Source: Cupriavidus sp. P-10 (GTDB lineage: Bacteria > Pseudomonadota > Gammaproteobacteria > Burkholderiales > Burkholderiaceae). Taken from it: a stretch of DNA of 64,000 nucleotides. Location: assembly GCF_003402535.2 (NCBI RefSeq), contig NZ_AP025170.1, positions 2,542,001 through 2,606,000 of the forward strand, in the 5' to 3' direction. Of this stretch, positions 2,975 through 22,845 are shown piece after piece. The position numbers were made by a program, and so were the translations under genes. Below the pieces are notes generated by a model. The model searched no databases, was not told the DNA's origin, and saw only the letters and a list, made by a program, of their open reading frames with translations. Each line of letters starts with the position of its first letter. Position 1 is the first letter of the stretch.

Positions 2975-2990
2975 TGGCACGCGCCTTGCT
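2975..2990 (+). promoter_or_regulatory. Sigma-54 (-24/-12) promoter of the first GG-peptide gene
   Basis: The sequence TGGCACGCGCCTTGCT is a full match to the sigma-54 consensus TGGCACG-N4-TTGCW, with GG and GC 10 nt apart. Transcription would start near 3001, about 40 nt before the ATG of the peptide gene at 3042. The phosphatase gene follows on the same strand and would be co-transcribed. Confidence 0.9.
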
Positions 2991-3041
2991 CTAATCCGGT
3001 ACCGCCCCCGGCGCCACGCCGCTACTACCGGAGACAGAAAC

Positions 3042-3335
3042 ATGGCCACCCTAGCTATCCACGACCTTGCCAGCTGCCGCGAACTTGCATCCGACGCCAT
3101 GGCCCGCGTGCGCGGTGCCGGCGGGCAGTGGGTGTTCGGGTGGATCCGCCCGTTCGTGCCGTCGTCGCCGGTGCCGGCTGGCGCAGTGATCAACTTTTAC
3201 GAGATCAACTACAGCTTCTATGCTGATCAGATGAACAACCAGTTCCAGAACATCGATATCCGCAATAACGCGCCCAACTCCAATATCAGTGTCCAGGGTG
3301 ACCAGGGCGCGAGGAACGACGGCCGCTTGGTCTGA
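3042..3335 (+). CDS. Double-glycine leader peptide precursor 1
   Basis: This is a 97-residue precursor-like protein. Its N-terminus (MATLAIHDLASCRELASDAM followed by ARVRGAGG) is a diverged copy of the leader shared by six other small genes downstream; here the cleavage motif is GAGG rather than RGG. The mature part would be about 69 residues, free of cysteine and rich in Asn/Gln (QMNNQFQNIDIRNN), with an aromatic segment INFYEINYSFY. The start follows ACCGGAGACAGAAAC, the same ribosome-binding context as other family members. It sits directly behind a sigma-54 promoter and 88 bp before the PP2C gene. Export by the C39 ABC transporter is inferred from the leader. Its activity is unknown. Confidence 0.8.
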   Translation: MATLAIHDLASCRELASDAMARVRGAGGQWVFGWIRPFVPSSPVPAGAVINFYEINYSFYADQMNNQFQNIDIRNNAPNSNISVQGDQGARNDGRLV

Positions 3336-3423
3336 GCGAGCGTCGTGGCACGCCCCGGCGCGAGGAGGCACCAAAGGCACCAAAGGGGCAATAAAGGGGC
3401 GCGATGCGGAGCGGAGGCTAGAT

Positions 3424-4200
3424 TTGGGTTTCGATTCGCACTTTCAGTGGACCTCGGCGGCCTGCACCGATGTGGGCCGCGTACGCGAACGCAACGAGGA
3501 TGCGTGCCTGGACCTGCCTGCGCAGCAGTTGTGGGCGGTCGCCGACGGCATGGGAGGACACGCCGTCGGCGACTTTGCCAGCCAGGCCGTGGTCCAGGCG
3601 CTGGCCGCGCTGCCGCCGCAGCCGTTGCTGGAAGACCGGATGGAGGCCACGCGTGCGGCGATGCAGGGCGTCAACCTCGCGCTGGTCGATGAAGCCGCGC
3701 GGCTGGGCGTGCGCTGCATCGGCAGCACGGTGGTGGTGATGCTGGCCGGCGACCGCCGCTGCGGCTGCCTGTGGGCCGGCGACAGCCGGCTGTACCGGCT
3801 GCGCGGCGGCGAGCTGGTGCGGCTGACGCGCGACCACAACCAGGTCGAACGCCTGCTGGCGCGCGGGCTGATCACGCCCGACCAGGCACGCCATCATCCG
3901 GCGCAGAACACCATCACGCGCGCGGTCGGCGCCGCGGCGACGCTGATGCCGGAACAGCTGCTGACCGACGTTGCCGATGGCGACATCTTCCTGCTGTGCA
4001 GCGACGGATTGAGCAATGAGGTCGACGACCCCGACATCGCCGCGGTGCTGGCGCAACAGGACCCGCCGCAAGCCGCGCAGACGCTGCTGAAGATGGCGCT
4101 CGATGCCGGCGGGCGCGACAACATCTCGGTGGTGGTGATCCGCGCCGCCGATCCCTACGGCTCGGACAAAACGCTGGTCAATCCCGAGCTGGACACCTGA
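3424..4200 (+). CDS. PP2C-family protein serine/threonine phosphatase (PppA/Stp-like)
   Basis: The product is 258 residues and spans one PP2C domain. The metal-binding motifs are present in order: RERNEDAC, VADGMGGH, GSTVVV, WAGDSRLYR, LCSDGLSNEV and GRDNISVVV. It removes phosphate from Thr/Ser and should oppose the kinase at 19015-21096. I chose the TTG at 3424 because GGAGG lies 6 nt upstream and because an upstream in-frame ATG (3289) lies inside the preceding peptide gene and adds a low-complexity basic tail. The C-terminus carries SDKTLVNPELDT, a possible FHA-recognised phosphothreonine site. It shares a sigma-54 transcript with peptide 1. This is the phosphatase arm of a PpkA/PppA/Fha-like switch. 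Confidence 0.9.
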   Translation: MGFDSHFQWTSAACTDVGRVRERNEDACLDLPAQQLWAVADGMGGHAVGDFASQAVVQALAALPPQPLLEDRMEATRAAMQGVNLALVDEAARLGVRCIGSTVVVMLAGDRRCGCLWAGDSRLYRLRGGELVRLTRDHNQVERLLARGLITPDQARHHPAQNTITRAVGAAATLMPEQLLTDVADGDIFLLCSDGLSNEVDDPDIAAVLAQQDPPQAAQTLLKMALDAGGRDNISVVVIRAADPYGSDKTLVNPELDT

Positions 4201-4225
4201 GCCCCGCCCCTACCGAGTACCGCCC

Positions 4226-5554
4226 CTACCCCTTGCTCCCGTCCGCCTGCCGGCTGGCGCGGAAATCCTTGGAGTGGATGCCGTGCTTCTTCAGCAGCAT
4301 CTGCAGGTGCGAGCGGTTCATGTCGAAGCGCCGCGCCAGCTCGGCCACGGTGCCGCCAACCTCCTGCAGCCCGCGTTCCAGGAAGGCGCGCTCGGCTTCG
4401 TCGCTGGCCGCGCGCTTGGCCTCGCTGAGCGACGTCGGCATGGCGATGTCCGCCGCACCTGCCCCCACCGCCCCAACCACCGCCAGCGCCGCCGGCTTGG
4501 GCCGGATGTCCTGCGGCAGCTGCGCCAGGTCGGCGGTGTCGCCGGCCAGGCACGAGAGCCGGTACATCAGGTTGCGCAGCTCGCGGATATTGCCCGGGTA
4601 GTCGTAGTGCAGCAGGAAATCGCGCAGCCGCGGCGTCAGCCTGACCGGCGCGCGCTTGAGCATGCTGGCGGCCTCGTCGCTGAAGTAGGACACCAGCAGC
4701 GGGATCTCGTCGTGCCGCTCGCGCAGCGCCGGCAGGCTGACGTGGATGACGCTCAGTCGGTAGAACAGGTCTTCGCGGAAGGTGCCGACCTCGCTCATCT
4801 TGCGCAGGTCCTTGTTGGTGGCGGCAACGATGCGCGTGTCGACCGAGATGATCTCGTCCGAGCCCACGCGCTGGATCTCGTGCGCCTCCAGCACGCGCAG
4901 CAGCTTGACCTGCCCGGTCAGCGGCAACTCCCCGATCTCGTCCAGGAAGATGGTGCCGGTATGCGCGCTCTCGAACTTGCCGCGCCGGTCGTTGCTGGCG
5001 CCGGTGAATGCGCCCTTCTTGTGGCCGAACAGTTCGGATTCGAGCAGGCTGTCGGGAATCGCGCCGCAGTTGACCGAGATGAACGGCTTGTCCGTGCGCG
5101 AACCATTGGCGTGGATCACCTTGGCCATCAGTTCCTTGCCGGTGCCGCTCTCGCCGTCGATCAGCACCGGCAGGTCGGTTGGCGCGGCTTTCTCGGCAAT
5201 TTCCAGCGCTTCGAGCAGCTTGGGGTTGTCGCCAAAGGTGCCCTCGAAGATAAAGCTGCGCTCCATCAGCGCCTGGCGCCGCTCGCGCGGCATGCGCTCG
5301 ACTTCCTGCGCCGGCGGCGCGGCTTCGGCATCGGCCGAGGTTGCCGCCTGCACGAAGCGCTCCTTGTGCGACAGCCCCATGACCTCGTCGCGCAGCGTGG
5401 TGGCCTGCTTGAGCAGCTTCTCGATATCGGGCCGGTCTAGCCGGGATGCCCAGCGCAGCGTCGAGCGCAGGATCTCGATCTTCTCGATCAGCCCGGCGAA
5501 CGACACCGGCGAGGTCACCGAGGCGGGGGTGGCACCCTGGTTGAATAGCTTCAT
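4226..5554 (-). CDS. Sigma-54-dependent transcriptional activator (bEBP) without a receiver domain
   Basis: This 442-residue protein has an AAA+ core and a DNA-binding tail. Walker A GESGTGKE is at residues 134-141, the sigma-54-contacting GAFTGA at 181-186, Walker B TIFLDEIGEL near 201-210, and a Fis-type helix-turn-helix (VAELARRFDMNRSHLQMLLK) near 400-425. The first 100 residues are helical and match neither a receiver nor a GAF/PAS domain that I recognise, so the input is unclear. It overlaps the transporter gene by 4 bp (ATGA), making it the last gene of the exporter operon. Three sigma-54 promoters precede the peptide genes of this locus and are its obvious targets (inference). Confidence 0.92.
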   Translation of the reverse strand: MKLFNQGATPASVTSPVSFAGLIEKIEILRSTLRWASRLDRPDIEKLLKQATTLRDEVMGLSHKERFVQAATSADAEAAPPAQEVERMPRERRQALMERSFIFEGTFGDNPKLLEALEIAEKAAPTDLPVLIDGESGTGKELMAKVIHANGSRTDKPFISVNCGAIPDSLLESELFGHKKGAFTGASNDRRGKFESAHTGTIFLDEIGELPLTGQVKLLRVLEAHEIQRVGSDEIISVDTRIVAATNKDLRKMSEVGTFREDLFYRLSVIHVSLPALRERHDEIPLLVSYFSDEAASMLKRAPVRLTPRLRDFLLHYDYPGNIRELRNLMYRLSCLAGDTADLAQLPQDIRPKPAALAVVGAVGAGAADIAMPTSLSEAKRAASDEAERAFLERGLQEVGGTVAELARRFDMNRSHLQMLLKKHGIHSKDFRASRQADGSKG

Positions 5555-8500
5555 GCTGCGCTCAGTTGCTTCTGCACCAGTTGGAAATACATGCCCTTGC
5601 GTTCCAGCAGTTCTTCGTGCCTGCCCTGCTCGACGATCGAGCCTTCATACAGCACCAGGATCTTGTCGGCCTGCATGATGGTGCTGAGGCGGTGCGCGAT
5701 GATGACCGCGGTGCGCCCACGCAGGATCTCCTGCATGTTCGCCAGGATGTTGCTTTCAGATTGCGTATCCAGCGCCGAGGTGGCTTCGTCGAACACCAGC
5801 AGCCGCGGGTCGTGGTACAGCGCGCGGGCGATGCAAAGCCGCTGGATCTGCCCGCCCGACAACCCCATGCCGCGCTCGCCCACCACCTGCTCGTAGCCGA
5901 GCGGCAGCTTGCTGATAAAGGCGTGGGCGTCGGCCATGCGGGCCACTTCCTCGATGCGGCGGCGGTCGGGACTGTCGTCGCCGCAGGCGATGTTCTCGGC
6001 GATGGTGCCGGAGAACAGCAGGTTGGACTGCATCACATAGCCGACCTGCGCGCGGTAGAACGCCGCGTCGATCACGTTGAGGTCATAGCCGTCCACCGAC
6101 ATCGAGCCCTCGGTCGGCTTGTAGAAGCCCACCAGCAGCTTGGCCAGCGTGGTCTTGCCCGAACCGCTGCGCCCGACGATGGCGACCATCTCGCCTGGCC
6201 GGATGGTGAAGCTGATGTTCTCCAGCACGTAGGGCGTGTCTTCGCCGCCGTAGCGGAAATACAGGTCCTTCATCACGATCTCGCCCTGCAGGTCGGGCAG
6301 CATCACGCGCGACAGCACGTCCTGCGGCTTCTGCTCTGGCTCCAGGTCGAGCACGTCGCCAAGCCGCTCCATCGCCACGCCCGCATCGTTGAGCTGGCTC
6401 CACAGGGCGACCAGACCCATCAACGGCGCCAGCACGCTGCCCATGAAGGCGTTGAAGGCGATCAGCTGGCCGATGGTCAGCTCGCGCTCCAGCACCAGCG
6501 TCGCGCCCACCCACAGCACCGCGATGGTGGTGGCGGCGTTGAGCAGCTGGCTCACCAGCCCCACCAGGATATGGAACGCCTGCGCCTTGTACTGCGCCTC
6601 CAGCGCCTTGGTGTACTTGCGCTCCCAGCGCAGCCGCACCGGACGCTCGATGCCCATGCCCTTGACGGTCTCGGCGCCGCCCAGCGTTTCCATCAGGTAG
6701 GCCTTGGCATCGGTCGACGCGGCAAAGACCTCGCGCGCATAGGTCTTGACCTTCGGCGTCACCACGATCGTCAGCGCCGCGATCGGGATCACGAAGGCAA
6801 TCAGCAGCAGCGTCAGCTTGACGTTGTAGAGGAACATGATGGTGAAGTAGATAAACACCATCAGCAGGTTCAGCGCCGTGGTCACCGTCGACTCCGTCAG
6901 GAAGGCGCGGATGGTCTGGTTCTCCTGGAAGCGCGCGAAGATGTCGCCGGTCTTGCGCTTGGCGAAGAACGAGAGCGGCAGCGACATCGTGTGCTTGAAG
7001 AAGTGCGACATCATGGCGAAATCCATGTTGCGCACCATGAAGTTGGCCAGGTAGGCGCGGATCGTCGACATCAGCTGCGAGAACACGTTGGCGATGATGA
7101 GCCCGGCGATCAGCAGGTGCAGCAGCCCCACGTTCTGGTGCACCACCACACCGTCGAGGATGTTCTGGATGATCAGCGGCGGCACCACGCCCAGCATCTG
7201 GATCACGAAGGTGGCCAGGAACAGGTGCGCCAGGATCTTCTTGTACGGCGCCAGGTAGCTGATGAAACGCAGCCACGGCGAGCGCTGCACCGACAGCTGC
7301 GTCATGCTCTCGCCCGGCGAGAACAGCAGGCAGGTGCCGCTCCAGCCGCGCTCGAACTCTTCCGCGCTCATCTTGCGGAAGCCGATGGCGGGATCGGCCA
7401 CCCACACCCAGCGCGACGAGATGCCGTACACCACAACGTAGTGGTAGCCTTCCCAGTGCACGATGAACGGCAGCTCGAAGCCCATCAGCGAGTCGCGCGT
7501 GCATTGCACGCCGCGCGTGGTGAAGCCCAGCGACTCGCCCGCACGCGCCAGGCTGTCGAGCGTGGCCCCCTGCGTGGTCACGTTGGCCAGCTCGCGCAGC
7601 TTGCCCAGCGTCATCGGGATGCCGTAGTGCCGGCAGATCATCGCCAGGCAGGCCGCGCCGCAGTCCATCTCCTCGGCCTGCTCGACCAGGCCGAAGCGGC
7701 GGATCATCTTCTCGCCCAGCTCGGGCTTCGAATGCAGGTCCAGCAGCACCGGGCGCTTGCGCCGCTCGGCCAGCTTCTTCTGCCGATGCAGCTCGCGGTC
7801 GAGCGCGCGGATGCGCTCTTCCAGCACCTCGCGCAGGCGCGGGTTGCGCTCAAGGATCAGCTGCACGGTCTTCTCGGGGATGACCAGCAGGCGCACGTCG
7901 GTCTCGGCGATGGCCGATGCCAGCTGCTCCTGCCGCATCACGCAGGCGCGCTCGCCGAAGATGTCGCCCTGCCCCAGCGTCGCCAGCGGGAACTCGCTGC
8001 CCTCCTCGCTGCGCACCACGCGCACGGTGCCCTGGCGCACCACGTACAGGCGGCGGTCCTCGCGCCCGTCCTGCTTCAGGATCTCCTTGCCGGCTCCCAC
8101 GCGCTTGACGCCAACGCTGCGCACGGCATCCGCAAGTTCCTGCTTGTCGAGCTTGCCGCGAAGGTCGAACAACCGCGCGACAAAGCCCCCGGCGGAACTG
8201 ATCGCGACATAGCTGGTAACAAAGGACAGCGCGGCCGGGTTGCCGGCGACCAGCGGTTCGGCCACGCTGCGCGGGATCATCAGCAACTCGGTCTTGCCCG
8301 AGGCGCGCACCGACGATTCGTGCCGGTACTCGCGCAGCAGCGCGATATCCGCAAAGACCTCGCCGGCCTTGCGCACGCCCATGCTGATTTCCTTGCCATG
8401 CTCTTCGTTGAACACGCGCACGGAGCCCGACTTGACGATAAACAGGCCAGGCGCGGCGTCGCCGGCATTGCAGACCGTGTCGCCAAAGCCAAAGGTCAGC

Positions 8501-8679
8501 ACCTGCGCGGCGTCGGCCAGGCGCGCCAGCTCCTCAGGCGTCAGCACCGACAGGATTTCCACGCTGGCCAGGAAAACGGCCAGCGCGGATCCGCCCTCGG
8601 CCATTCCCGAGGCTGTCGGGGCCGTCGGGGCAGTGGCGGCGGCCGATTCGCCAGACTCGCTAGCGGGCTTCGATGACAT
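5551..8679 (-). CDS. Peptidase-containing ABC transporter (C39-ABC) with two N-terminal cNMP-binding-like domains
   Basis: This 1042-residue protein has four parts. Residues 35-155 and 185-285 are cyclic-nucleotide-binding-like beta barrels (GDTVCNAGDAAPGLFIVKSG; GQGDIFGERACVM). Residues 328-455 are a C39 peptidase with the oxyanion Gln334, Cys340, His413 and Asp429 all present (EQAEEMDCGAACLAMICRHY). Residues about 470-770 are the six-helix ABC membrane domain. Residues 800-1040 are the ATPase, with GRSGSGKTT, LSGGQIQRL, LLVFDEATSALD and IIAHRLS. The family cleaves leaders after a double glycine and exports the remainder across the inner membrane. Usual members are near 700 residues; the extra length is the tandem regulatory module. 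It overlaps the PPIase gene by 20 bp and the activator gene by 4 bp. Confidence 0.95.
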   Translation of the reverse strand: MSSKPASESGESAAATAPTAPTASGMAEGGSALAVFLASVEILSVLTPEELARLADAAQVLTFGFGDTVCNAGDAAPGLFIVKSGSVRVFNEEHGKEISMGVRKAGEVFADIALLREYRHESSVRASGKTELLMIPRSVAEPLVAGNPAALSFVTSYVAISSAGGFVARLFDLRGKLDKQELADAVRSVGVKRVGAGKEILKQDGREDRRLYVVRQGTVRVVRSEEGSEFPLATLGQGDIFGERACVMRQEQLASAIAETDVRLLVIPEKTVQLILERNPRLREVLEERIRALDRELHRQKKLAERRKRPVLLDLHSKPELGEKMIRRFGLVEQAEEMDCGAACLAMICRHYGIPMTLGKLRELANVTTQGATLDSLARAGESLGFTTRGVQCTRDSLMGFELPFIVHWEGYHYVVVYGISSRWVWVADPAIGFRKMSAEEFERGWSGTCLLFSPGESMTQLSVQRSPWLRFISYLAPYKKILAHLFLATFVIQMLGVVPPLIIQNILDGVVVHQNVGLLHLLIAGLIIANVFSQLMSTIRAYLANFMVRNMDFAMMSHFFKHTMSLPLSFFAKRKTGDIFARFQENQTIRAFLTESTVTTALNLLMVFIYFTIMFLYNVKLTLLLIAFVIPIAALTIVVTPKVKTYAREVFAASTDAKAYLMETLGGAETVKGMGIERPVRLRWERKYTKALEAQYKAQAFHILVGLVSQLLNAATTIAVLWVGATLVLERELTIGQLIAFNAFMGSVLAPLMGLVALWSQLNDAGVAMERLGDVLDLEPEQKPQDVLSRVMLPDLQGEIVMKDLYFRYGGEDTPYVLENISFTIRPGEMVAIVGRSGSGKTTLAKLLVGFYKPTEGSMSVDGYDLNVIDAAFYRAQVGYVMQSNLLFSGTIAENIACGDDSPDRRRIEEVARMADAHAFISKLPLGYEQVVGERGMGLSGGQIQRLCIARALYHDPRLLVFDEATSALDTQSESNILANMQEILRGRTAVIIAHRLSTIMQADKILVLYEGSIVEQGRHEELLERKGMYFQLVQKQLSAA

Positions 8680-9412
8680 GTTCCTGCGCCCTGCCCATCA
8701 GCCAGTCCTCGCGCAGCAGCCGTCGCACTTCGACCGCGACTTCGCTGTCGAGCGTGGCGGGATGCTTGGCGCGCACCAGGAAGACCTCGAAGAAGGAGCG
8801 GTCCGGCGCCGGGAACGGTCCCAGCAGGTCGCCCGGCTCTGCGTTGAACACCTTGGCCTCGATATCGGTCTTGAGCGAGCCGCGCAGCACCTTGCCGATC
8901 TCGCCGCCGTGCTCGCGCGTGTCGGCGATCGAATGCTCGCGCGCCATCTCGGCGAAGCTGTCGGGATCGTCCTGCAGGTAAGAGATCAGCTCCTTGGCCT
9001 TGCCTTCGCTGTCGACCACGATATGGCTGACCTCGATGCTGTCGAAGCGCGGCGAGTTGAGCGAAAAGTACTCCTGCACCGCACCCTCGCTGCAGACCTG
9101 TTCCATCATCCGCTCCTGGTACAGGTTGTCGGTGATGAACGCTTCGAACTCGTCGAGGCTGACGTTCAGCGCGTCGAGGTAGTGGTTCATGTCGGCGGCG
9201 CGATGCAGCCCCTGCACGCGGCGGAACTGGTCGGCGCGCTCCTGGATTTCCTCGGGCGTGACCACCATGCCCTGCCGTTTCGCGGCATGCACGGTCAGCT
9301 TGTCGCGCACCATCTGCTCGACCAGCCCTTCGAACTGCCCGGTCAGCTTGAGCAGCCGCACGAATTCCTCGACGCCGAGCACCTCGTCGTCGATACGGAC
9401 AATGCCAGTCAT
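8660..9412 (-). CDS. Parvulin-type peptidyl-prolyl isomerase of the export operon
   Basis: This 250-residue protein contains a rotamase (PpiC/SurA-like) domain at about residues 125-225, recognised by VSHIVVDSEGKAKELISYL and FAEMAREHSIADTREHGGEIG, preceded by a SurA-N-like helical region. No signal peptide is visible, so it probably acts in the cytoplasm, perhaps as a chaperone for precursors or exporter. A strong AAAGGAG ribosome-binding site lies 7 nt before the ATG. Its end overlaps the transporter start by 20 bp, which implies translational coupling. Similar isomerases accompany some double-glycine peptide exporters, but I cannot name a characterised orthologue. Confidence 0.85.
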   Translation of the reverse strand: MTGIVRIDDEVLGVEEFVRLLKLTGQFEGLVEQMVRDKLTVHAAKRQGMVVTPEEIQERADQFRRVQGLHRAADMNHYLDALNVSLDEFEAFITDNLYQERMMEQVCSEGAVQEYFSLNSPRFDSIEVSHIVVDSEGKAKELISYLQDDPDSFAEMAREHSIADTREHGGEIGKVLRGSLKTDIEAKVFNAEPGDLLGPFPAPDRSFFEVFLVRAKHPATLDSEVAVEVRRLLREDWLMGRAQEHVIEAR

Positions 9413-9495: not shown

Positions 9496-10875
9496 TTATC
9501 CCGCCACCTCGCGGAAGGGGTCGAGCCCCAGGTCGATCAGACGGCGCTCGCGCACCACGATCTCCGCCGTGGCAGTCATGCCATAGCGCAACGGATACTT
9601 GCTGTCGGCCACGGTGTAGTAGTCGCGCGCGAGGCGCACCCTGCCTTCGTAGACCGGCTGCTTGTCGGGGCCCGGCTTGGTCGCGGGCGAAATGAATTCG
9701 AGCGTGCCTTCCAGGATCCCGTAGCGCTGGTACGGGAATGCGCTGAACTTGAGCTTGACCGGCAGCCCTTCGCGCAGGAAGGCGCGGTCGCGCTCGGCGA
9801 TGACGATCTTGACCACCGGGCGCGCGTCCTTCGGCGCAATCCCGCCCAGCGGCGAATTGGCCTGCACCTTGTCGCCGCGCTGGGTAGAGGTGACGTCAGT
9901 GATCACGCCCGACACCGGCGCCAGGATCAGCAGGAAGTTGTCCTTGTCGATGTTCTCGAAGCGGATGCGCGCGGCCGCGTCGGCCACCAGCCGTGCGGTC
10001 TGCACCTGCAGCCGCAGCTTGTCTTCGGTACTGGAGATTTCGCGCATCGCGGCGTCGTACTGCACGCGCAGCCCGGCCAGGTCTTGCCCGCTGCTTTCGA
10101 GCAGCGCGCCGGCCTGGGTCATCTCGCGGGCCAGTCGCGCGTCGAGTTCGCTCAGCCGAGACTGCGCCACACGCAGGTTGTTCTCTGCGTCCTGCGCCGC
10201 GGCGCGCTTGGCATCGACCTGCGACTGCGAGACACCGCCGCCACCGGGCAGCGCCAGCAGGCGCGCATAGCGGTCCTGTTCCTGGCGCGCGAACTCGCGC
10301 GCACGCCGGCTGTTCTCCAGGTTGCTGCGCGCTTCCTGCAGCTGCGCGCGCTGTTCCTCGGCCAGCCGCGTGGTGCCCTGGGCCAGGCGATTCTCGTGCT
10401 GGCGCGTGGCCACGTCGATCTGCTGCTTGAGCGCGGCCGCGCGGCGTTCCATCAGCGCCTTCTTCTCCGGGAACTGCTTCCAGTCGCGCTCGGAATCCTC
10501 CAGCTTGAGCTGCGCCTCCAGCGCATTGGCGGCGGCCTCGATCGCGCCGCGCGCATTCAGCCGCGCCAGCACGTCGTCCTTGGACACCGGCTGCCCTTCG
10601 GCGACGTACAGGTCGGCCAGCTCGCCGTCGACCGGCGCATAGAAGCGCCGCACTTCCGATTCGGGGGCCAGCGTTCCCTGCGCGGTGACGATGACATCGG
10701 CATGGCCGACGAATGACCACACCAGCCCGCACATCACCAGCGCAAACGTAGTGACGATGGTCAGCATGCCCAGCCGCGAAGGCTCGGCGGTCAGCAGGCC
10801 GATGCCTTCGGCGCTGTGGTCTTCCAGCGCTTCGGACAACGGCTTCAGGCCAGCCTGGCGGGAATCGTCCTTCAT
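9496..10875 (-). CDS. HlyD-family periplasmic adaptor (membrane fusion protein)
   Basis: This 459-residue protein has one transmembrane helix near residues 38-55 (TIVTTFALVMCGLVWSFVGH). After it come the biotinyl-lipoyl-like half motif (FYAPVDGELADLYVAEGQPV), a long coiled coil (about 95-260) and the beta-barrel with GVITDV. Such adaptors link an inner-membrane ABC transporter to an outer-membrane channel. I chose the ATG at 10875 because it forms a 4-bp ATGA overlap with the stop of the FHA gene; a GTG three codons upstream is the alternative. It is followed after 83 bp by the PPIase gene. Confidence 0.93.
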   Translation of the reverse strand: MKDDSRQAGLKPLSEALEDHSAEGIGLLTAEPSRLGMLTIVTTFALVMCGLVWSFVGHADVIVTAQGTLAPESEVRRFYAPVDGELADLYVAEGQPVSKDDVLARLNARGAIEAAANALEAQLKLEDSERDWKQFPEKKALMERRAAALKQQIDVATRQHENRLAQGTTRLAEEQRAQLQEARSNLENSRRAREFARQEQDRYARLLALPGGGGVSQSQVDAKRAAAQDAENNLRVAQSRLSELDARLAREMTQAGALLESSGQDLAGLRVQYDAAMREISSTEDKLRLQVQTARLVADAAARIRFENIDKDNFLLILAPVSGVITDVTSTQRGDKVQANSPLGGIAPKDARPVVKIVIAERDRAFLREGLPVKLKFSAFPYQRYGILEGTLEFISPATKPGPDKQPVYEGRVRLARDYYTVADSKYPLRYGMTATAEIVVRERRLIDLGLDPFREVAG

Positions 10876-13484: not shown

Positions 13485-13551
13485 GTTTCCAGGGAGCCAA
13501 CAGCGCGGCTGCCGCGGCGGCCGGCCAAGGGGGGGTGAAGCGACTAAGAAC

Positions 13552-13579
13552 ATAGTAGGCGACGGCTTAGGCTAGTCAA
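13552..13579 (-). promoter_or_regulatory. Sigma-70-type promoter for the FHA/exporter operon
   Basis: On the minus strand TTGACT and TACTAT are separated by 16 bp. The start point would lie near 13545, about 60 nt before the ATG at 13484. This separates expression of the exporter genes from the sigma-54-driven peptide genes. Confidence 0.65.
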
Positions 13580-15172: not shown

Positions 15173-15348
15173 GACCCTGGAAGCGGCAGTAAGGGATACG
15201 GGCACGGTGCGTTCCTGCGTGCGTGCGCGGCGGGCGGGACGCGCTGGCGTGCCGTGGCCGCGGATGTCTGTCTGTATTGTGGTGCGCGCGGGCGCGCGCT
15301 CCAACCCCGATCTGCATCAGGGGCGATCGGGCATGGATGGGCGCATAT

Positions 15349-15396: not shown

Positions 15397-15660
15397 TCAA
15401 CGATAGATATTGTTGCTGGCGTTCTGGTTGGTATCCACATGCGAACGGACATGGTCGAGGAAGGCCGAGCCGTTGCCATTCAGGTTGGTGACAGACTGCA
15501 TCTGCGCGATTTCCTGCGTGGCGGTGATGCTGCTGTCGAGCTTGAGCTTGATCGGGGCGTAGACCGCCGCGAAAGGCATGTAGGCGAGACCGCCGCGCAC
15601 GGCTTGCATGCGCTTGCTGTCGAGGGTTTCGGTGGCGGCCAGGTCTTTGATGGTCAGCAT
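15397..15660 (-). CDS. Double-glycine leader peptide precursor 2 (cassette copy A, second gene)
   Basis: This is an 87-residue precursor. The leader MLTIKDLAATETLDSKRMQA plus VRGG ends in the double-glycine cleavage motif at residues 23-24, leaving a 63-residue core that starts LAYMPFAAVYAPIKL and ends in an Asn-rich tail (VDTNQNASNNIYR). No cysteine is present. GGAGA lies 6 nt before the ATG. It is 59 bp behind the 15720 gene and should share its transcript. It is the most diverged of the four close homologues, and its last residue is Arg where the other three have Gly. Confidence 0.85.
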   Translation of the reverse strand: MLTIKDLAATETLDSKRMQAVRGGLAYMPFAAVYAPIKLKLDSSITATQEIAQMQSVTNLNGNGSAFLDHVRSHVDTNQNASNNIYR

Positions 15661-15719: not shown

Positions 15720-15989
15720 TCAGCCGTAGATGTTGTTGGTGGCGTTCTGGTTGGTGTGGACGTTCGACTTGACGTGGTCCAGGAACGCGGAGCCGTTGCC
15801 GTTCATGTTGGTGACGGTCTGCATTTGCGCGATTTCCTGCGTGGCGGTGATGCTCTTGTCGATCGACAGCTTCAGCGGCATGTAGGCGGCGACGAACGGG
15901 ACGTAGGCGAAGCCGCCGCGGACGGCGTGCATGCGCTTCTGGTCCAGGGTGTCGATGGTGGTCAGGTCGTTGATGGTCAGCGTGGTCAT
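15720..15989 (-). CDS. Double-glycine leader peptide precursor 3 (cassette copy A, first gene)
   Basis: This is an 89-residue precursor with the leader MTTLTINDLTTIDTLDQKRM followed by HAVRGG, then a 63-residue core with a hydrophobic N-terminal half (FAYVPFVAAYMPLKL) and an Asn/Gln-rich C-terminal half ending NQNATNNIYG. AGGAG lies 6 nt before the ATG. A sigma-54 promoter lies about 77 bp upstream. The closest relative in the window is the gene at 21525, on the opposite strand. Leader type and exporter suggest secretion; the activity of the core is unknown. Confidence 0.88.
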   Translation of the reverse strand: MTTLTINDLTTIDTLDQKRMHAVRGGFAYVPFVAAYMPLKLSIDKSITATQEIAQMQTVTNMNGNGSAFLDHVKSNVHTNQNATNNIYG

Positions 15990-16065: not shown

Positions 16066-16081
16066 CGCAGGGAGCGTGCCA
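16066..16081 (-). promoter_or_regulatory. Sigma-54 promoter of cassette copy A
   Basis: On the minus strand the sequence TGGCACGCTCCCTGCG has GG and GC 10 nt apart, matching -24/-12 consensus with one change in the -12 element. It drives the peptide pair 15989 to 15397 and is identical over 16 bases to the promoter at 21430. Confidence 0.85.
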
Positions 16082-16538: not shown

Positions 16539-16967
16539 CTACTTCACGTAGATCGTGATCCGCTTCGAATACACCGGCGGGTTGGTAGGAATGTGCTTGT
16601 CATCCCCCATGATCAGCTGCAACGTATGCTTTCCCGGCGGCAGCTCCAGCATGGTCTCTGTCTCGCCGGCGCCGAAATGCAGGTGGTTGCGGTCGTTCGG
16701 GATTTCCTTGTCCATCGGCGGCAGTTCGACGTCGATCAAGAGGTGGTGGTGCCCGGTGTTCGCGTACTTCACGTCCTTCGGAGCCACCCCCATGTTGCGC
16801 AGGCCGAACCACACCTTGAACGGCTTGCCGGCAGGCATCACCTGCCCGTCATTGGGCCAGCCGATGTAGAGATAGGCATTCGGCGGCGCCGGCGTCGATC
16901 CGCCCTGGGCCGCGAACGACAACAGCACGCTGGCAGCCAGCGCAGCGGCAGCAAGTAGTCTGGACAT
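16539..16967 (-). CDS. Exported DUF4399-domain protein, copy 1
   Basis: This 142-residue protein has a cleavable signal peptide (residues 1-20, LLAAAALAASVLLSFAAQGG) and one DUF4399-like domain. The hallmark is [20 protein letters not shown] followed by [14 protein letters not shown] and GKHTLQLIMGDDKHIP. The histidine clusters suggest metal binding in the periplasm, but that is inference. GGGGAGAGGG precedes the ATG. It lies 45 bp behind a paralogue and between the peptide cassette and the SUMF1/kinase pair. Confidence 0.85.
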   Translation of the reverse strand: MSRLLAAAALAASVLLSFAAQGGSTPAPPNAYLYIGWPNDGQVMPAGKPFKVWFGLRNMGVAPKDVKYANTGHHHLLIDVELPPMDKEIPNDRNHLHFGAGETETMLELPPGKHTLQLIMGDDKHIPTNPPVYSKRITIYVK

Positions 16968-17012: not shown

Positions 17013-17438
17013 CTAGCGCACGGTGATCGTGATCTTCTTCGAATAGATCGGCGGCTCGAACGGTATGTGCTTGGCGTCGCCCATCAGCAGCTGCAAGGTG
17101 TGCTTGCCAGGCGGCAGTTCGATGCGCGCATCCGTCTCGCCCGCCCCGAAATGCAGGTGGTTCCGGTCGTTCGGGATTTCCTTGTCCATCGGCGGCAGTT
17201 CGACGTCGATCAACAGGTGGTGATGGCCACAGCGCGGCAGCTCGATGCCCTTGGGACACACGCCCATGTTGCGCAGCCCCATGCGCACCCAGAACTTGCC
17301 GCCGCTGATCACGGTGCCGTCGTGTGGCCAGATGATGTAGGCCTCGGCATTGGGCGGAGCCGCCGTCGACAAGGACAGCGATGGCGCGGCGGCAAACAAC
17401 GCGGCCGCCGCCAGGCGGAACAGGAATCGTCTGGACAT
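17013..17438 (-). CDS. Exported DUF4399-domain protein, copy 2
   Basis: This 141-residue tandem paralogue of the gene at 16539 shares the block [20 protein letters not shown] and [10 protein letters not shown]. It has two extra cysteines in the middle ([16 protein letters not shown]), which could form a disulfide in the periplasm. The start at 17438 is preferred because it begins the signal peptide and has GGGGAGGG 4 nt upstream; an in-frame upstream start adds 12 residues. The two genes form an operon. Function unknown. Confidence 0.85.
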
Positions 17439-17718
17439 GCGCCCTCCCCGGAGATCTGCCCGAAACCCGATCACGTTGTCCCGTCAGCCCATTCTTGTTG
17501 CTTGTTGGCCAGCGCTCGGCGATTCGTCATTCAGGTTAGGACGCAAGACCGGAAAATGCGACCCCGGCGAAGCGTGGCGGGATTGCAATGCTTCGCCCGG
17601 GACACAGGCGCTGTGCTATCTTGAAGCAAGCCGGTCGAGGTCTCGGCAACACCACAATGCGCCCGCAGGCATGTGCCGGCATGCAATCGGGTTCGCTGCC
17701 GTCCGACGAGGTGTGAAG

Positions 17719-18921
17719 ATGTGGCGCAATCTACCAGTCGTGCATCTGGCCGCGATGGCCGGGATTCTCGCCTCCGCTGCACTCTCCGCGGGTGCGGCGT
17801 CTGCAGCGCCCGCCGCGGACCCGCTGCTGCTGGCCGGCATCCTGCCCAAGGATACCGACGAGCAATACGAGCTCAGCTTCTGGGAATCGATCAAGAACAG
17901 CAACTACGCCGCCGACTATGAGGCTTACCTGAAGCAATACCCCAACGGGCGCTTCGCGGTGCTGGCCAAGGCACGGCTCGAGCGGCTGAAGGCGTCCGCG
18001 CCACCCGCCAAGGCGCAGCAGCCGCCGCCCGCAGCTGCGGCGCCGCCCGCACGCCCTGGCACGTCGGCCGGCGGACAGGTCTCGCGGGCGCCGGCTGCTT
18101 CGCCGCCCGCCGCACGCCCTGCCACGCCACCGCCAACCGCGGCAGCGCCCAAGGCAGGCACCGCCGCCGGTGGCTCGGTCAGCGTCGCAACCCCGCCACC
18201 GCGAGCCGGCGAAATCCGCGATTGCCCGGCCTGTCCGGCGCTGATTGCGCTGCCCGCAGGCAATTTCACCATGGGCAGCAACACCAGCGATCCGGCGGAG
18301 AAGCCGCCCCATCACGTCACCATCAGCCAGCCGTTCGCGATCGGCCGCTTTGAAGTCACGGTCGAGCAGTGGAATGCCTGTGTCGACGCAGGCGGCTGCC
18401 AGCGCGTGCCGACCGTCGCCGAAAGCGCAAAGAACTCGCCCGTGCGCGATGTCAGCTGGGACGATGCGCAACAGTATGTGGCGTGGCTCAGCAAGACCAC
18501 TGGCAAGGACTACCGCCTGCCGACCGAATCGGAATGGGAGTACGCGGCGCGCGGCGGCACCGCCAGCGCGTTCTGGTGGGGCGACCAGATGCGCAAGGGC
18601 AACGCCAACTGCAAGGATTGCGGCGATCCGTGGAGCAATGATGCACCTGCGCCGGTGGGTTCGTTCGCCGCCAACCCGTGGGGCCTGCATGACGTCAACG
18701 GCAGCGTGTGGGAATGGGTGGCCGACTGCTGGCACAGCACGTACAAGGGCGCACCCGCCGACGGGCGCGCATGGAACGAGAACGCCTGCGGTTCGCGCGT
18801 GATACGCGGCGGCTCATGGCGTGAAGGGGCCAGCTACATGGTGTCTTCCACGCGCTTCAAGTACAGCCCGAGCGTGCGGCAGTCGCAGAACGGCTTCCGC
18901 GTCGCGCGCGACATGAAATAG
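17719..18921 (+). CDS. Exported SUMF1/FGE-fold protein, TagR-like
   Basis: This 400-residue protein has a signal peptide (1-27), a short helical domain with [20 protein letters not shown], a Pro/Ala-rich linker (about 85-155) and a C-terminal SUMF1/FGE-sulfatase fold (about 160-400; [52 protein letters not shown]). The two catalytic cysteines of true formylglycine-generating enzymes, expected just after RGGSW, are absent ([12 protein letters not shown]), so a binding or sensor role is more likely. In type VI secretion the SUMF1-fold protein TagR acts upstream of the kinase PpkA; here the gene is convergent with a PpkA-like kinase gene. GAGG lies 8 nt before the ATG at 17719. Confidence 0.88.
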
Positions 18922-19014: not shown

Positions 19015-21096
19015 TCAGCGTGCGCGCGTCGAGATCTGCACGACCTCCGCGCTGATGCGGTCATTGCCGTAGGTGCGCGCCATCTGCGCCAGCGGCTTCT
19101 CCAGCGCGCGCAGGTAGTCCTGCCGCGCTTCCACTTCCGTACGGCGCCCTTCGAACAGCGGCACCGGCGTGGTCAGCAGCACCACCAGCTCGGTGCCGAA
19201 CGGCGCCGACACGACCCACGCGCCGCCCTCGCCAATCGTTGCCTGATGGCCTGCCGGGGCCTGGTGGGCCGGCACGCGCGTGCTGGGGACCATGTGCGCG
19301 ACCTTGCCGTCGGCCGCGAAGTAATCGACGTAGACATAGGACTCCTGCGCCGGCGTGCGCAGCTCCAGCACCAGCGGCGTGCCATCGGTCAGCTGCGAGC
19401 TCTTGCCGCGCAGCCGCAGCGATGACGCGCCGCCGCCCTCGCGATTGCCGGACCAGTACGGCGCGATCAGTTTGGCGACATCGCACTTGTCGGCGGCAAA
19501 GGGCTGGGTTTCGACGGTCACGCCCTTTACGCCGGGCATTGCCGCCAGTTGCTCGCGCAGGCGCGCCGGCCCCACGCTCTCGTCCAGGAAGCCGCGCACG
19601 CGCAGCGTATGGGCCTTCTCGCTGACGCTGAGCAGCGAACACGGCACCGCGGCGAGCGCCTTGCTGACGTCGGCCATTGAGAACACGGCCGGGCGCGGCG
19701 GAGGTGACACGGGAGGCGGCGCGGGTGTTTCTGCCCGCGTTGGCGCAGGCGGCGTGGCGGGCGCTTCCGCAGGCGATTCGGCGCGTGACTCGGCGCGCGA
19801 CTCGGCCGGCGGCTCGGCCTGCCGGGAGGCATGCCAGGCGTAATAGCCGATCGCCGACACCCCGGCGAGCACGGCGGCGACACCGCCGAGCATCATCGGC
19901 GAGCGCTGCGACGGGGTTGTCGCCGGCACCGCGCTCATGCCGTGCAGGAAGCGCGCGACGGTCGGCGTGCGCGTGGCCCGGTCCAGCGACAGCGACTCGC
20001 GCAGCGTTTTCCATTGGGTGCGGCTGAGCTGCGGCGGCTGCAGCGGCTTGACGCCCGCTTCGCGCGCCTGGTTGGCCGACATGCGCTGGTACGGATGCTT
20101 GCCTGTAACCAGTTCGTAGGTCACGCAGGCCAGCGCGTAAATGTCATCGCGCGGATCGGGCTCGCGATGCTCGAACATCTCGGGACTCGCATAGGCCGGC
20201 GTCATGCCGCCCAGCGAGCCCGGATCGAACACGGTCCGGTCTGACTCGTCCGCCGGCGGCAGGAAGCCCCGCGCGATGCCGAAGTCGATCACCTTGACCT
20301 CGCCGCTGTCGGTCAGGAACACATTGGCGGGCTTGAAGTCGCAGTGCACGAAGCCGCGTTCGTGCGCGTAGGCCAGTGCGTTGCCCATGCCATTGATGAT
20401 GGGCATGGCGCGCGCCATCGGCATGCCGCTGAAACCCGGCGCCTTCAGCACATGGTTGAGCGAATTGCCCGACAGGTATTCCATGGTCAGGAAGACCACC
20501 GGCCCGTCGCGGTCAAAGTCGTAAACGGTAACGATGTTCCGGTGCGCCAGCGTCTGGGCCTTGCGCGCTTCGCGCTGCAACGCGATCAGCGACTTGGGAT
20601 GGCCGCTGAACTGCAGGTTCAGCACCTTGATGGCGATATAGGGCTTGCGGTCAGACGCTTCCAGCTTGCGCAGGTCCAGCGCCTTGTACACCGTGCCCAT
20701 GCCGCCCACGCCCAGGCACTCCTCCAGCACGAAGCGGCCGTTCAGCGTATCGCCCACGCCCTTGGTATGCGCCGCATTCGGCAGCGTGCCGGCCTCCGGC
20801 GAGGTCGCGTAGAGCGAACCGGTATGCGGGCCGCTGGCCATGCGCGTGGATTCAGTGGCGCCCTCGTACTGGGTGGCACTGCGGCGCTCGATGCGCCGCA
20901 TGACCTCCGCATAGACCGCGGGCGGGAACGGGAAGCGCGTGTTTTCCTCGATCACCACGCGCGCCGCCTGGCTGGGCGAGGTCGGGTCCTGGGCCAATGC
21001 CGTCTCGAACGACGCAACGAATTCGTCGTCGGACAGTCCGCCGTTCTGGAACTTTCGGATCAGGTCTTTAAGACTGGCCACGGCTCGCCCTGACAT
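19015..21096 (-). CDS. Transmembrane serine/threonine protein kinase, PpkA-like
   Basis: From the ATG at 21096 the protein has 693 residues. The kinase domain covers about 122-395, with glycine loop LGVGGMGTVY (128-137), AIK lysine (157), VHCDFKPANV with catalytic Asp253 (HCD instead of HRD, a non-RD kinase), DFG at 271 and YASPEMF. The activation segment contains ESDRTVFDPG. A transmembrane helix lies at 402-421, and a roughly 260-residue extracytoplasmic part holds a BON-like stretch and a DUF4384-like domain (ESYVYVDYFAADGKVAHMVP). It phosphorylates proteins on Thr/Ser in the cytoplasm and may sense the periplasm. The FHA protein, PP2C phosphatase and SUMF1 protein of the locus complete the switch. 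A longer start at 21225 is possible but would precede the likely promoter. Confidence 0.9.
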   Translation of the reverse strand: MSGRAVASLKDLIRKFQNGGLSDDEFVASFETALAQDPTSPSQAARVVIEENTRFPFPPAVYAEVMRRIERRSATQYEGATESTRMASGPHTGSLYATSPEAGTLPNAAHTKGVGDTLNGRFVLEECLGVGGMGTVYKALDLRKLEASDRKPYIAIKVLNLQFSGHPKSLIALQREARKAQTLAHRNIVTVYDFDRDGPVVFLTMEYLSGNSLNHVLKAPGFSGMPMARAMPIINGMGNALAYAHERGFVHCDFKPANVFLTDSGEVKVIDFGIARGFLPPADESDRTVFDPGSLGGMTPAYASPEMFEHREPDPRDDIYALACVTYELVTGKHPYQRMSANQAREAGVKPLQPPQLSRTQWKTLRESLSLDRATRTPTVARFLHGMSAVPATTPSQRSPMMLGGVAAVLAGVSAIGYYAWHASRQAEPPAESRAESRAESPAEAPATPPAPTRAETPAPPPVSPPPRPAVFSMADVSKALAAVPCSLLSVSEKAHTLRVRGFLDESVGPARLREQLAAMPGVKGVTVETQPFAADKCDVAKLIAPYWSGNREGGGASSLRLRGKSSQLTDGTPLVLELRTPAQESYVYVDYFAADGKVAHMVPSTRVPAHQAPAGHQATIGEGGAWVVSAPFGTELVVLLTTPVPLFEGRRTEVEARQDYLRALEKPLAQMARTYGNDRISAEVVQISTRAR

Positions 21097-21157
21097 GGTT
21101 TTCGGGCAGGGTCGCCCGCGCTCTGTGTGCAGTGCGAAGTTGCCCTGTCTCCGATGG

Positions 21158-21186
21158 ATACTAGTGCGCACCCATGGCATGCGCAA
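21158..21186 (-). promoter_or_regulatory. Possible sigma-70 promoter of the kinase gene
   Basis: On the minus strand TTGCGC and TAGTAT are 17 bp apart, and the implied start point lies about 55 nt before the ATG at 21096. Both hexamers are imperfect. If real, it rules out the longer kinase start at 21225. Confidence 0.4.
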
Positions 21187-21385
21187 TCCGTGCGCTTCCC
21201 TTGCGCTGTCGGCACGCAACGCCATGCACGTGCGGATTCAGCGTGCGTCGGCCGCGATCGGCGCCAACTGTCACTGCTGCGCCAACACCAGCGCTTCACG
21301 TGTTGGCGCGACACCGCCATTCCTGGCCCCGCTTTTCCGCATGCGGCCCGTGCTGCCAAGCCGACATGCCGGCCAAAAATCCCTT

Positions 21386-21429: not shown

Positions 21430-21445
21430 TGGCACGCTCCCTGCG
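21430..21445 (+). promoter_or_regulatory. Sigma-54 promoter of cassette copy B
   Basis: TGGCACGCTCCCTGCG has the -24 GG and -12 GC 10 nt apart. Predicted start is near 21456, about 70 nt before the ATG at 21525. It probably drives the run of peptide genes to 22487. Confidence 0.88.
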
Positions 21446-21524
21446 ATATCCAACCCGAGCGCGACACCAACCCGATGCTCGAATCCAAACCCAAAGGCAA
21501 TACCTTCCGCTACCGGAGACCATC

Positions 21525-21794
21525 ATGACCACGCTGACCATCAAGGACCTGTCCTCCGCCGAAACCCTGGACCGCAAGGGCATGCAAGCCGTACGCGGCG
21601 GCATGACCTACATGCCGTTCGCCGCGGTGTACATGCCGCTGAAGCTGTCGATCGACAAGAGCATCACCGCCACGCAGGAAATCGCGCAGATGCAGTCTGT
21701 CACCAACCTGAACGGCAACGGCTCCGCGTTCCTGGACCACGTCAAGTCGAACGTCCACACGAACCAGAACGCCACCAACAACATCTACGGCTGA
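21525..21794 (+). CDS. Double-glycine leader peptide precursor 4 (cassette copy B, first gene)
   Basis: This is an 89-residue precursor with the leader MTTLTIKDLSSAETLDRKGM and QAVRGG at residues 21-26. The core starts MTYMPFAAVYMPLKLSIDKS and ends NQNATNNIYG. It has no cysteine. The start follows CCGGAGACCATC. From residue 40 onward it is almost the same as the 15720 product, while the leader and core start differ more, so the C-terminal Asn-rich half appears to be the most constrained part. First gene behind a sigma-54 promoter. Confidence 0.88.
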   Translation: MTTLTIKDLSSAETLDRKGMQAVRGGMTYMPFAAVYMPLKLSIDKSITATQEIAQMQSVTNLNGNGSAFLDHVKSNVHTNQNATNNIYG

Positions 21795-21853
21795 GCCCCG
21801 CGCCATAGCTGCACACGCACACACGCACACACATCGATACCCGGAGAACGATC

Positions 21854-22123
21854 ATGACCACGCTGACCATCAAAGACCTGTCCGCCGCCGAAACCCTCGA
21901 CAGCAAGCGCATGCACGCCGTGCGCGGCGGCCTCGCCTACCTGCCCTTCGCCGCTGTCTACGCGCCGATCAAGCTGGCGTTCGACGGCAGCATCGACGCC
22001 AAGCAATCGATCGCGCAGATGCAATCCGTCACCAACCTGAACGGCAACGGTTCGGCCTTCCTGGATCACGTCAAGTCGAACGTGCATACCAACCAGAACG
22101 CCACCAACAACATCTACGGCTGA
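21854..22123 (+). CDS. Double-glycine leader peptide precursor 5 (cassette copy B, second gene)
   Basis: This 89-residue precursor has the leader MTTLTIKDLSAAETLDSKRM plus HAVRGG and a 63-residue core LAYLPFAAVYAPIKLAFDGS continuing to NQNATNNIYG. It lies 59 bp after the previous peptide gene; the spacer holds an ACACGC repeat tract and CCCGGAGAACGATC before the ATG. It is the counterpart of the 15397 gene. The middle of the core (DAKQSIAQMQ) differs from TATQEIAQMQ in the other three. Confidence 0.88.
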   Translation: MTTLTIKDLSAAETLDSKRMHAVRGGLAYLPFAAVYAPIKLAFDGSIDAKQSIAQMQSVTNLNGNGSAFLDHVKSNVHTNQNATNNIYG

Positions 22124-22214
22124 TCCAGCCACGGCCGCGGCGCGCGGTGGACATATGCAACCTCCGCGCCAGCCGCCCCGCCAAACTCATCGAAATACCT
22201 GAAGGAGCACCATC

Positions 22215-22487
22215 ATGTCATCCATCATCGTTCGCGACCTCGCCGTCAGCAAAGACCTCGACCGTGCCTCGCTGCGCGCCGTGCGCGGCGGCAATTCCTG
22301 GCTCACCCGCGGTGTCGGCAACGTCGGCCCGCTGGCCAACGTCACCGTCAACGTCAACCAGAACATCGCCCAGTTGCAGAGCATCAATGTCAACACGCTC
22401 AACAACAGCTTCGTCGGCCACGGCGTGGGCCCGGTGAAGGTCGACGTCAACCCGTCGCAATGGGCCGGCAACTTTGCCGCAGTCTGA
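22215..22487 (+). CDS. Double-glycine leader peptide precursor 6 (Val/Asn-rich core)
   Basis: This is a 90-residue precursor. The leader MSSIIVRDLAVSKDLDRASL plus RAVRGG keeps the family pattern, but the core is different: NSWLTRGVGNVGPLANVTVN, then VNQNIAQLQSINVNTLNN and a tail with QWAGNFAAV. Alternating Val/Asn/Gln suggests beta-strand or amyloid-like character (inference). AAGGAG lies 7 nt before the ATG. It follows the cassette by 91 bp and is probably on the same sigma-54 transcript. Confidence 0.85.
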   Translation: MSSIIVRDLAVSKDLDRASLRAVRGGNSWLTRGVGNVGPLANVTVNVNQNIAQLQSINVNTLNNSFVGHGVGPVKVDVNPSQWAGNFAAV

Positions 22488-22506
22488 GCGCCTGGGTACG
22501 GGGAGC

Positions 22507-22545
22507 GGCGGCCGGCCCGCGGGTGAGCACCGCGAGCCGGCCGCC
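22507..22545 (+). terminator. Long GC-rich hairpin between peptide genes 6 and 7
   Basis: GGCGGCCGGC pairs with GCCGGCCGCC, and an inner CGCGG/CCGCG stem closes a short loop. There is no T tract. It may mark an RNA 3' end or stabilise the upstream peptide mRNA. Confidence 0.5.
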
Positions 22546-22602
22546 TATACTGAAGCGGTCCCGCGGCCGCATGGCCGTGGCGCCGCGTTACCGGAGACAG
22601 CC

Positions 22603-22845
22603 ATGGCAGTAATCGTCATCAAGGATTTGTCCGACAGCATGGATCTCGACCGGCAGGCCATGACCGCCATCCTGGGCGGCGGGCGCACTGCCGGCGGCCA
22701 GGGATGGCACGGGCTGCGGCGTAGCGGACCGGCGCGCATCGTCGATTACCCGGGCGGCCTGCCCGGCAATCGCCATGTGATGCCACGGGAGGTCCCGCTG
22801 GGCCGGTTGCCACGCAAACCGGCAGACAAGGGGACGGGCGGCTAA
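22603..22845 (+). CDS. Double-glycine leader peptide precursor 7 (Gly/Arg/Pro-rich core)
   Basis: This is an 80-residue precursor-like protein. The leader MAVIVIKDLSDSMDLDRQAM and TAILGGG match the family pattern at the key positions (hydrophobic start, KDL, LD, AM, GG), but the core is basic and rich in Gly, Pro and Arg (GRTAGGQGWHGLRRSGPARI) instead of Asn-rich. The ribosome-binding context ACCGGAGACAGCC is almost that of peptide 1. It lies behind a strong hairpin, and a TATACT box at 22546 could give it its own promoter. Export by the same transporter is inferred. Confidence 0.7.
   Translation: MAVIVIKDLSDSMDLDRQAMTAILGGGRTAGGQGWHGLRRSGPARIVDYPGGLPGNRHVMPREVPLGRLPRKPADKGTGG

Follow-up and report, generated by a model that had tools for sequence, protein, structure and literature searches.

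Class II microcins are encoded by clusters in which precursors with double-glycine (GG) leaders stand together with an ABC transporter carrying a C39 peptidase domain, an HlyD-family adaptor and an outer-membrane factor. In GarA/OdhI a phosphorylated motif binds the FHA domain of the same protein, and TagR of the type VI secretion system (T6SS) has the SUMF1 fold. A set of eukaryote-like kinase, phosphatase and FHA protein that gates secretion is, to our knowledge, a feature of contractile type VI machines. According to the accessible parts of the sources, PpkA, PppA and Fha are regulators of the T6SS (PMC10482370), and the machine is activated when Fha or TssL is phosphorylated on threonine in a kinase-dependent manner (PMC10482370, PMC3953482). 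Here we describe an 18-gene block at positions 2975-22845 of a 64,000-nucleotide stretch of the Cupriavidus sp. P-10 genome (the window), in which seven GG precursors and a C39-ABC/HlyD/TolC-type exporter are combined with a Ser/Thr kinase, a PP2C phosphatase and an FHA membrane protein.

We suggest that in this module the phosphorylation set switches the C39 peptide pump on and off, and we give this reading a probability of about 60%. We report the gene content and order of the block, the conserved residues of its proteins, the sigma-54-like sites that precede the precursor genes and the co-inheritance of kinase and FHA protein in 299 genomes.

Association of the phosphorylation genes with the exporter

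Two sets of loci were compared. The first comprises 40 loci found by tblastn, 27 from the genus and 13 from named genome contigs, which include Caballeronia glathei, Paraburkholderia kirstenboschensis and Trinickia soli. The second, a survey of the family, adds 40 further Burkholderiaceae loci found by profile, with 20 kb fetched per locus. In both sets the counterparts of the block keep its gene order. Four pairs of loci represent one genome twice (L035/L175, L038/L186, L041/L183 and L043/L208), which leaves 76 distinct loci, and recounts exclude the duplicates.

The genes of HlyD, the FHA protein and TolC follow each other in this order on one strand in 79 of the 80 loci (40/40 in the family survey, 39/40 in the first set; 75 of 76 distinct loci), the sole exception being L045, a contig of a metagenome-assembled genome with runs of N. 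Of the two FHA domains, the first has the usual GR...SRRH...NG signature, and in the second SK or NK replaces GR. Behind them, in an acidic linker, lies the segment [KR]TTF...SFL[DE]IF (TTF segment), which is found in 76 of 78 distinct loci other than the window; the two loci without it, L188 and L211, are broken copies. A transmembrane (TM)-like stretch and a large further domain follow. In several genera (L192-L208, L212) the FHA match stops near model position 610-640, and in these short-form loci the kinase, where located, lies beyond the exporter as seen from the FHA gene, at a distance of about 11-16 kb.

Across 299 Burkholderiaceae genomes the FHA protein (alignment, E ≤ 1e-60) occurs in 106, belonging to 8 of 25 genera. 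The kinase was searched with its C-terminal 250 residues at E ≤ 1e-10, and the generic kinase domain was thereby avoided. It matches 110 genomes, including all 106 FHA carriers; 105 of these match at E ≤ 1e-50, and the remaining one, G695, at 3e-24 with a broken locus. Of the 193 non-carriers four have a match: a fragmentary one at 8e-18 and three weak ones near 1e-11. Since the genome searches scored no more than two, three or nine candidates per genome, a missing match does not prove that the gene is absent.

The kinase is often not adjacent to the exporter and lies within the fetched 20 kb in just 13 of the 40 family loci. In a separate check it was nevertheless found in 23 of 23 genomes, 17 of which have no kinase in the fetched 20 kb. 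One genus (g27) has the kinase apart from the exporter in 27 of 30 carriers: 11 of these kinases share the contig of the exporter, 105 kb to about 1 Mb away, and 16 are on a different contig of a draft; these relocated kinases share ancestry and do not count as independent events. PP2C is present in 12 of 12 genomes checked, 11 of which were chosen for its absence from the sequence fetched; in G007 it is about 1.6 Mb away and in G017 on another contig. Loss of the kinase or PP2C from some loci was considered and rejected, the gaps being due to the 20-kb cut, contig ends or relocation (for PP2C, 11 genomes were followed); the check covers loci other than L042, L044, L122 and L132 for the kinase and L042, L044, L047, L188 and L195 for PP2C. 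The sequence-only reading of this DNA had treated kinase, PP2C and FHA protein as one set with the exporter and had named, as its refutation, homologous loci in which these genes are regularly lacking. In the genomes followed, all of them recognised by FHA, kinase and PP2C were found, if not always beside the exporter.

At positions that we take to be catalytic, the K/D/DFG residues of the kinase and the Asp and Gly positions of PP2C are kept in 30 of 30 sequences each, Q/C/H/D of the C39 domain in 40 of 40 and GAFTGA of the sigma-54 activator in 39 of 39. The comparison thus supports the view that the kinase/PP2C/FHA set goes with the peptide exporter and is no chance neighbourhood, and it supports a coupling of a phosphorylation switch to the pump. 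Two copies are decaying: in L188 (G695) the ABC, HlyD and SUMF genes are in pieces, and the kinase elsewhere in that genome is broken; in L211 (G649) the FHA, PP2C and kinase genes are in pieces. Both would fit one functional unit that is lost whole.

The kinase has a constant neighbour of its own. A G-type GG peptide gene diverges from it within 4.5 kb in 38 of 62 kinase loci (two duplicate pairs included). All 24 kinase loci without this peptide hold less than 2.5 kb of upstream sequence, so that the proper count is 19 of 19 loci from 19 genomes with at least 2.5 kb of flank, relocated kinases included and no duplicates. Five relocated kinases (L225, L227, L228, L230 and L231) have no recognised GG precursor other than the G-type peptide; at four of the five, a sigma-54-like site (10-11 of 12 positions) lies 150-197 bp 5' of the peptide gene.

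Gene content of the block

Open reading frames (ORFs) together with Pfam and NCBIfam profile searches delimit the block (Table 1). Every part named by the sequence-only reading, namely the seven GG precursors, the C39-ABC/HlyD/TolC-type exporter, the peptidyl-prolyl isomerase, the kinase, PP2C, the two-FHA protein and the SUMF1-fold protein, is found where it had been placed; overlooked were the sigma-54 activator, two DUF4399 proteins, the sigma-54-like sites, the first of which opens the noted stretch at 2975, and the position of the FHA gene between hlyD and tolC. Pfam identifies PP2C, the activator, two cNMP domains with C39 and ABC, a PPIC rotamase, HlyD, two FHA domains, OEP, SUMF1/FGE, and a Ser/Thr kinase with DUF4384. 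The minus strand carries one row from the two DUF4399 genes to the activator and, separately, the kinase. ORFs overlap between activator and ABC (4 bp), ABC and PPIC (20 bp), and HlyD and FHA (13 bp).

Table 1. Features of the block, in coordinates of the window.
Feature	Position	Strand	Remarks
Sigma-54 -24/-12-like site of pepA	2975..2990	+	12/12 consensus positions; 67 bp 5' of pepA start
pepA, A-type GG precursor	3042..3335	+	97 aa; RGA/GG cleavage region
PP2C phosphatase ORF	3289..4200	+	PF13672 8.5e-14; conserved from ~3427, start uncertain
Sigma-54 activator (AAA+, GAFTGA)	4226..5554	-	PF00158 6e-70
ABC exporter: two cNMP domains, C39 peptidase, TM region, ATPase	5551..8679	-	C39 PF03412 1.2e-39
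PPIC-type peptidyl-prolyl isomerase	8660..9412	-	TIGR04500 peptide maturation family match below cut-off
HlyD-family adaptor	9496..10884	-	PF13437 5.8e-20; TIGR01843 5.3e-47, below cut-off
FHA membrane protein: FHA1, FHA2, acidic linker with TTFVGAADSFLDIF, one TM-like stretch, C-terminal domain	10872..13553	-	PF00498, two stretches; conserved from ~13487
TolC/NodT-type outer-membrane factor	13745..15304	-	PF02321 2.7e-54; TIGR01845 1.7e-94, above cut-off; start uncertain
pepB, E-type GG precursor	15397..15660	-	
pepC, E-type GG precursor	15720..15989	-	
Sigma-54-like site of pepC, possibly also of the exporter genes behind pepC	16066..16081	-	10/12 positions; 92 bp 5' of start
DUF4399 protein b, signal-like N terminus	16539..16967	-	PF14347 1.1e-35
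DUF4399 protein a, signal-like N terminus	17013..17474	-	PF14347 1.2e-36
SUMF1-fold protein, signal-like hydrophobic N terminus	17713..18921	+	PF03781 1e-59; nearest PvdO (5hha 2.5e-47); start uncertain
Ser/Thr kinase, one TM-like stretch, C-terminal DUF4384	19015..21225	-	PF00069 1.5e-38, PF14326 3.4e-6; conserved from ~21084
Sigma-54-like site of pepD	21430..21445	+	identical to pepC site; 10/12 positions; 95 bp 5' of pepD
pepD, E-type GG precursor	21525..21794	+	
pepE, E-type GG precursor	21854..22123	+	
pepF, F-type GG precursor	22215..22487	+	
pepG, G-type GG precursor	22603..22845	+	basic (pI 11.8); on kinase side

As in GG-peptide type I secretion systems (T1SS), the C39 domain is fused to the ABC transporter, GG precursors lie alongside, and genes of an adaptor and an outer-membrane factor are present. 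The proteins stay below the cut-offs of the NHLP-type and TIGR04500 families (NHLM ABC 568 of 853 bits, NHLM HlyD 72 of 156, TIGR04500 88 of 180). In the rest of the window all eight proteins tested are housekeeping or metabolic (e.g. RpoD, DnaG, thymidylate synthase and DXP synthase). Beyond the block, at 25767-27026, an EgtB-like protein (DinB_2 with FGE-sulfatase) provides a second SUMF1-fold gene outside the module. The source genome of 9.08 Mb has three more C39 peptidase matches elsewhere (G000:C2:60954-61361, C3:413607-413975 and C1:1721045-1721395).

Among the matches listed, the nearest named relatives of the FHA protein are from Cupriavidus; the best 120 of 292 proteins, taken without their gene neighbours, also name Azoarcus, Aromatoleum and Noviherbaspirillum. 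Wider genome searches, scoring at most two candidates per genome, gave 3 of 399 genomes of the order and 3 of 369 of the class, own genome included.

Sigma-54-like sites and the activator

Sites were called at 9 or more of the 12 positions of TGGCACGN4TTGCW, which we take to be the sigma-54 -24/-12 consensus. In 77 distinct loci, the window included, A-type genes have such a site 5' of them in 49 of 52 cases and E-type genes in 91 of 142; none of the 13 F-type and 11 G-type genes has one, and a single one of the 13 unassigned peptide genes does. The background is 2.6% of random 90-bp windows. Inverted repeats with GTGT(C/T)GGC-like arms stand 5' of the pepA and pepD sites (2836-2865 and 21279-21309) and would be possible binding sites of the activator; the pepC site has no inverted repeat of this kind.

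These sites 5' of peptide units raise the alternative that kinase, FHA protein and PP2C act on transcription through the sigma-54 activator, so that the switch would set peptide synthesis and not export. In its favour, the activator gene overlaps the end of the ABC gene by 4 bp, and the first 107 residues of the activator have no Pfam match; an action of the regulators on the activator would count against a switch at the pump. However, the FHA protein has a TM-like stretch with a large domain behind it, and its gene is flanked by those of HlyD and TolC, the other envelope components of the exporter. We consider regulation of synthesis alone unlikely.

Double-glycine peptides

A regular expression for GG leaders finds exactly seven precursors in window positions 1-24000 and none in 24001-64000 or in 39.8 kb surrounding TssB at the T6SS locus of the own genome. 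Asparagine and glutamine (N/Q) make up 17-25% of pepA to pepF, against 6.7% in ten other proteins of the window; the comparison rests on the window peptides only, the peptide classes having been built by expressions that look at N. Mature pepG is basic and N/Q-poor (4%). Most loci encode several peptides, and related peptides keep a core across genera (A2). In L120, L125 and L126, from the genus, the G-type peptide is the sole GG precursor seen in the fetched stretch. Near another locus (L119:18727-19389, G028) a different run of three GG precursors (MQSTLMIKDLPLDKELDGK...) is found, one of them with a sigma-54-like site 5' of it.

As another alternative, the block could be a common bacteriocin or microcin cluster for several peptides in which just the regulators are unusual. 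Such a cluster would share the GG leaders, the C39-ABC, HlyD and outer-membrane factor layout of class II microcins and the several peptides per locus. No immunity gene was recognised beside the peptides in the annotation, no dedicated search having been made. The N/Q-rich composition of peptides A to F and the core kept across genera do not favour a bacteriocin cluster either. Nor does a possible relation of the A- and E-type mature profiles (hhalign probability 87%), which we use weakly; the 98% between E and F was left unused, as the F set may hold E-type members and 50 peptides are unassigned. On balance a bacteriocin cluster seems quite improbable.

Relation to the type VI secretion system

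The idea that a type VI regulatory quartet had been transplanted to peptide secretion is not borne out. Among the NCBIfam matches of the FHA protein there is no T6SS FHA family at E ≤ 0.01 or 1e-5. The nearest family of PP2C is Stp1 (below cut-off), and the SUMF protein is nearest to PvdO both in the Protein Data Bank and in NCBIfam (the latter below cut-off, with the model named dihydropyoverdine dehydrogenase), the matches being to database entries, with no TagR sequence compared. Having PvdO as its nearest solved relative, the SUMF protein could modify a product and need not be a TagR-like sensor. None of the 18 module genes is a T6SS structural gene, in agreement with the sequence-only reading, and TssB of this genome lies on another contig than the module.

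That the regulators belong to the T6SS of the genome and merely lie beside a peptide exporter is very improbable: PpkA, PppA and Fha regulate the T6SS in the accessible part of PMC10482370, and TssB is enriched among carriers of the module (94 of 106 against 86 of 193 non-carriers, odds ratio 9.7), but the FHA protein matches no T6SS FHA family and, in 75 of 76 distinct loci, is encoded inside the exporter row. Furthermore, a TssB match is missing in 12 of 106 carriers, 86 of the 299 genomes have TssB without the module, and none of the module profiles finds a match at E ≤ 1e-4 in the 39.8 kb around the own TssB gene.

Proposed mechanism

Switching of the peptide pump by threonine phosphorylation could proceed as follows.

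Step 1: The activator of the module would fire the peptide promoters at the sigma-54-like sites.

Step 2: The C39 domain would cut behind the GG of the leader, and HlyD with the outer-membrane factor would complete the conduit. The two cNMP domains may add a nucleotide checkpoint as in HetC, since the cNMP domain of HetC binds ppGpp in vitro and is required for function, as stated in the accessible part of PMC10986499.

Step 3: The kinase would phosphorylate a threonine of the TTF segment, or a partner bound by the FHA domains, and the exporter would thereby be assembled or opened. On the model of GarA/OdhI, the phosphorylated TTF segment may then be recognised by an FHA domain, either in its own molecule or in one next to it.

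Step 4: PP2C would reverse the kinase-dependent phosphorylation. Outside the cell the N/Q-rich peptides A to F would form extracellular material, and the basic peptide G, encoded beside the kinase, may be a regulator or a cue.

A rather doubtful extension is an autocrine circuit, in which the exported G-type peptide would be the cue for the envelope-side DUF4384 region of the kinase. Thus triggered, the kinase would phosphorylate the TTF segment and so open the exporter. If true, this would be a bacterial peptide-hormone receptor Ser/Thr kinase controlling deposition of an N/Q-rich extracellular fibre.

Several observations weigh against a phosphorylation-gated peptide pump. The co-inheritance counts are not phylogenetically independent, and the enrichment of TssB among carriers counts against full independence of the module from the T6SS. 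Every locus was found via the FHA protein as the mark of the exporter, so the survey covers FHA-bearing exporters of this type. In 17 of 80 loci, several of these cut or broken, the expression search finds at most one GG precursor within the sequence fetched, and in G007 and G017 PP2C has no GG precursor beside it. The structure model of a peptide has no confident fold (pLDDT 61.5, pTM 0.25). Two genomes from other families of the class, G893 and G860, have the TolC-FHA-HlyD-PPI-ABC-activator row with the TTF segment, but no kinase ortholog at E ≤ 1e-8, their best kinase matches covering the kinase domain, and no GG precursor by the expression used; the core may thus predate this kinase, or another kinase may serve it. 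The probability given above for the gated pump is slightly reduced on account of the varying peptide content of the loci and of a survey confined to exporters with FHA. In a distant core gene row without GG peptides, a 920-aa ORF adjoins TolC (L265:12476-15238) and is possibly another substrate or partner.

Comparison with known systems

In the open-access literature, with most subscription papers outside the search, we found no description of a kinase/PP2C/FHA set combined with a peptide exporter, and the sequence-only reading, which knew of no described system of this kind, agrees with this. If the pump is gated as proposed, threonine phosphorylation would be a more general gate of secretion. 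Defined targets within the module are the candidate phosphosite of the FHA protein, the seven small peptides, the three promoter sites and the kinase together with the peptide gene that always accompanies it where enough flank is present.

With the T6SS pathway of PpkA-PppA-Fha and TagQRST the module shares a membrane Ser/Thr kinase and a PP2C, both with intact catalytic residues, an FHA protein and an exported SUMF1-fold protein. Unlike in that pathway, the FHA protein is of another family, the SUMF protein is nearest to PvdO, the neighbours are a peptide pump, and there is no T6SS structural gene. Similar to GarA/OdhI, the FHA protein has a conserved TT motif outside the FHA fold; in the module, however, this protein is a membrane protein with two FHA domains, the motif lies behind FHA2, and its role as phosphoacceptor is putative.

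We know of no kinase or FHA partner of HetC of Nostoc. In common with the module, HetC has a cNMP domain N-terminal to C39 in a peptidase-type exporter; however, as far as the accessible part of the source goes, it has one such domain and no membrane fusion gene near hetC, whereas the module has two cNMP domains and the full conduit (PMC10986499).

With peptidase-containing ABC transporter (PCAT)/type I secretion of GG peptides (microcin-type exporters, ComA, HlyB fold) the module shares C39 with intact Q/C/H/D, ABC, HlyD, an outer-membrane factor and adjacent GG precursors. It differs from them in the two N-terminal cNMP domains, the PPIC protein, the FHA membrane protein within the operon, the co-inherited Ser/Thr kinase, PP2C and the sigma-54-like promoters. 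Judged by its genes, the module is best filed as a PCAT/T1SS peptide exporter with what appears to be a dedicated threonine-phosphorylation set.

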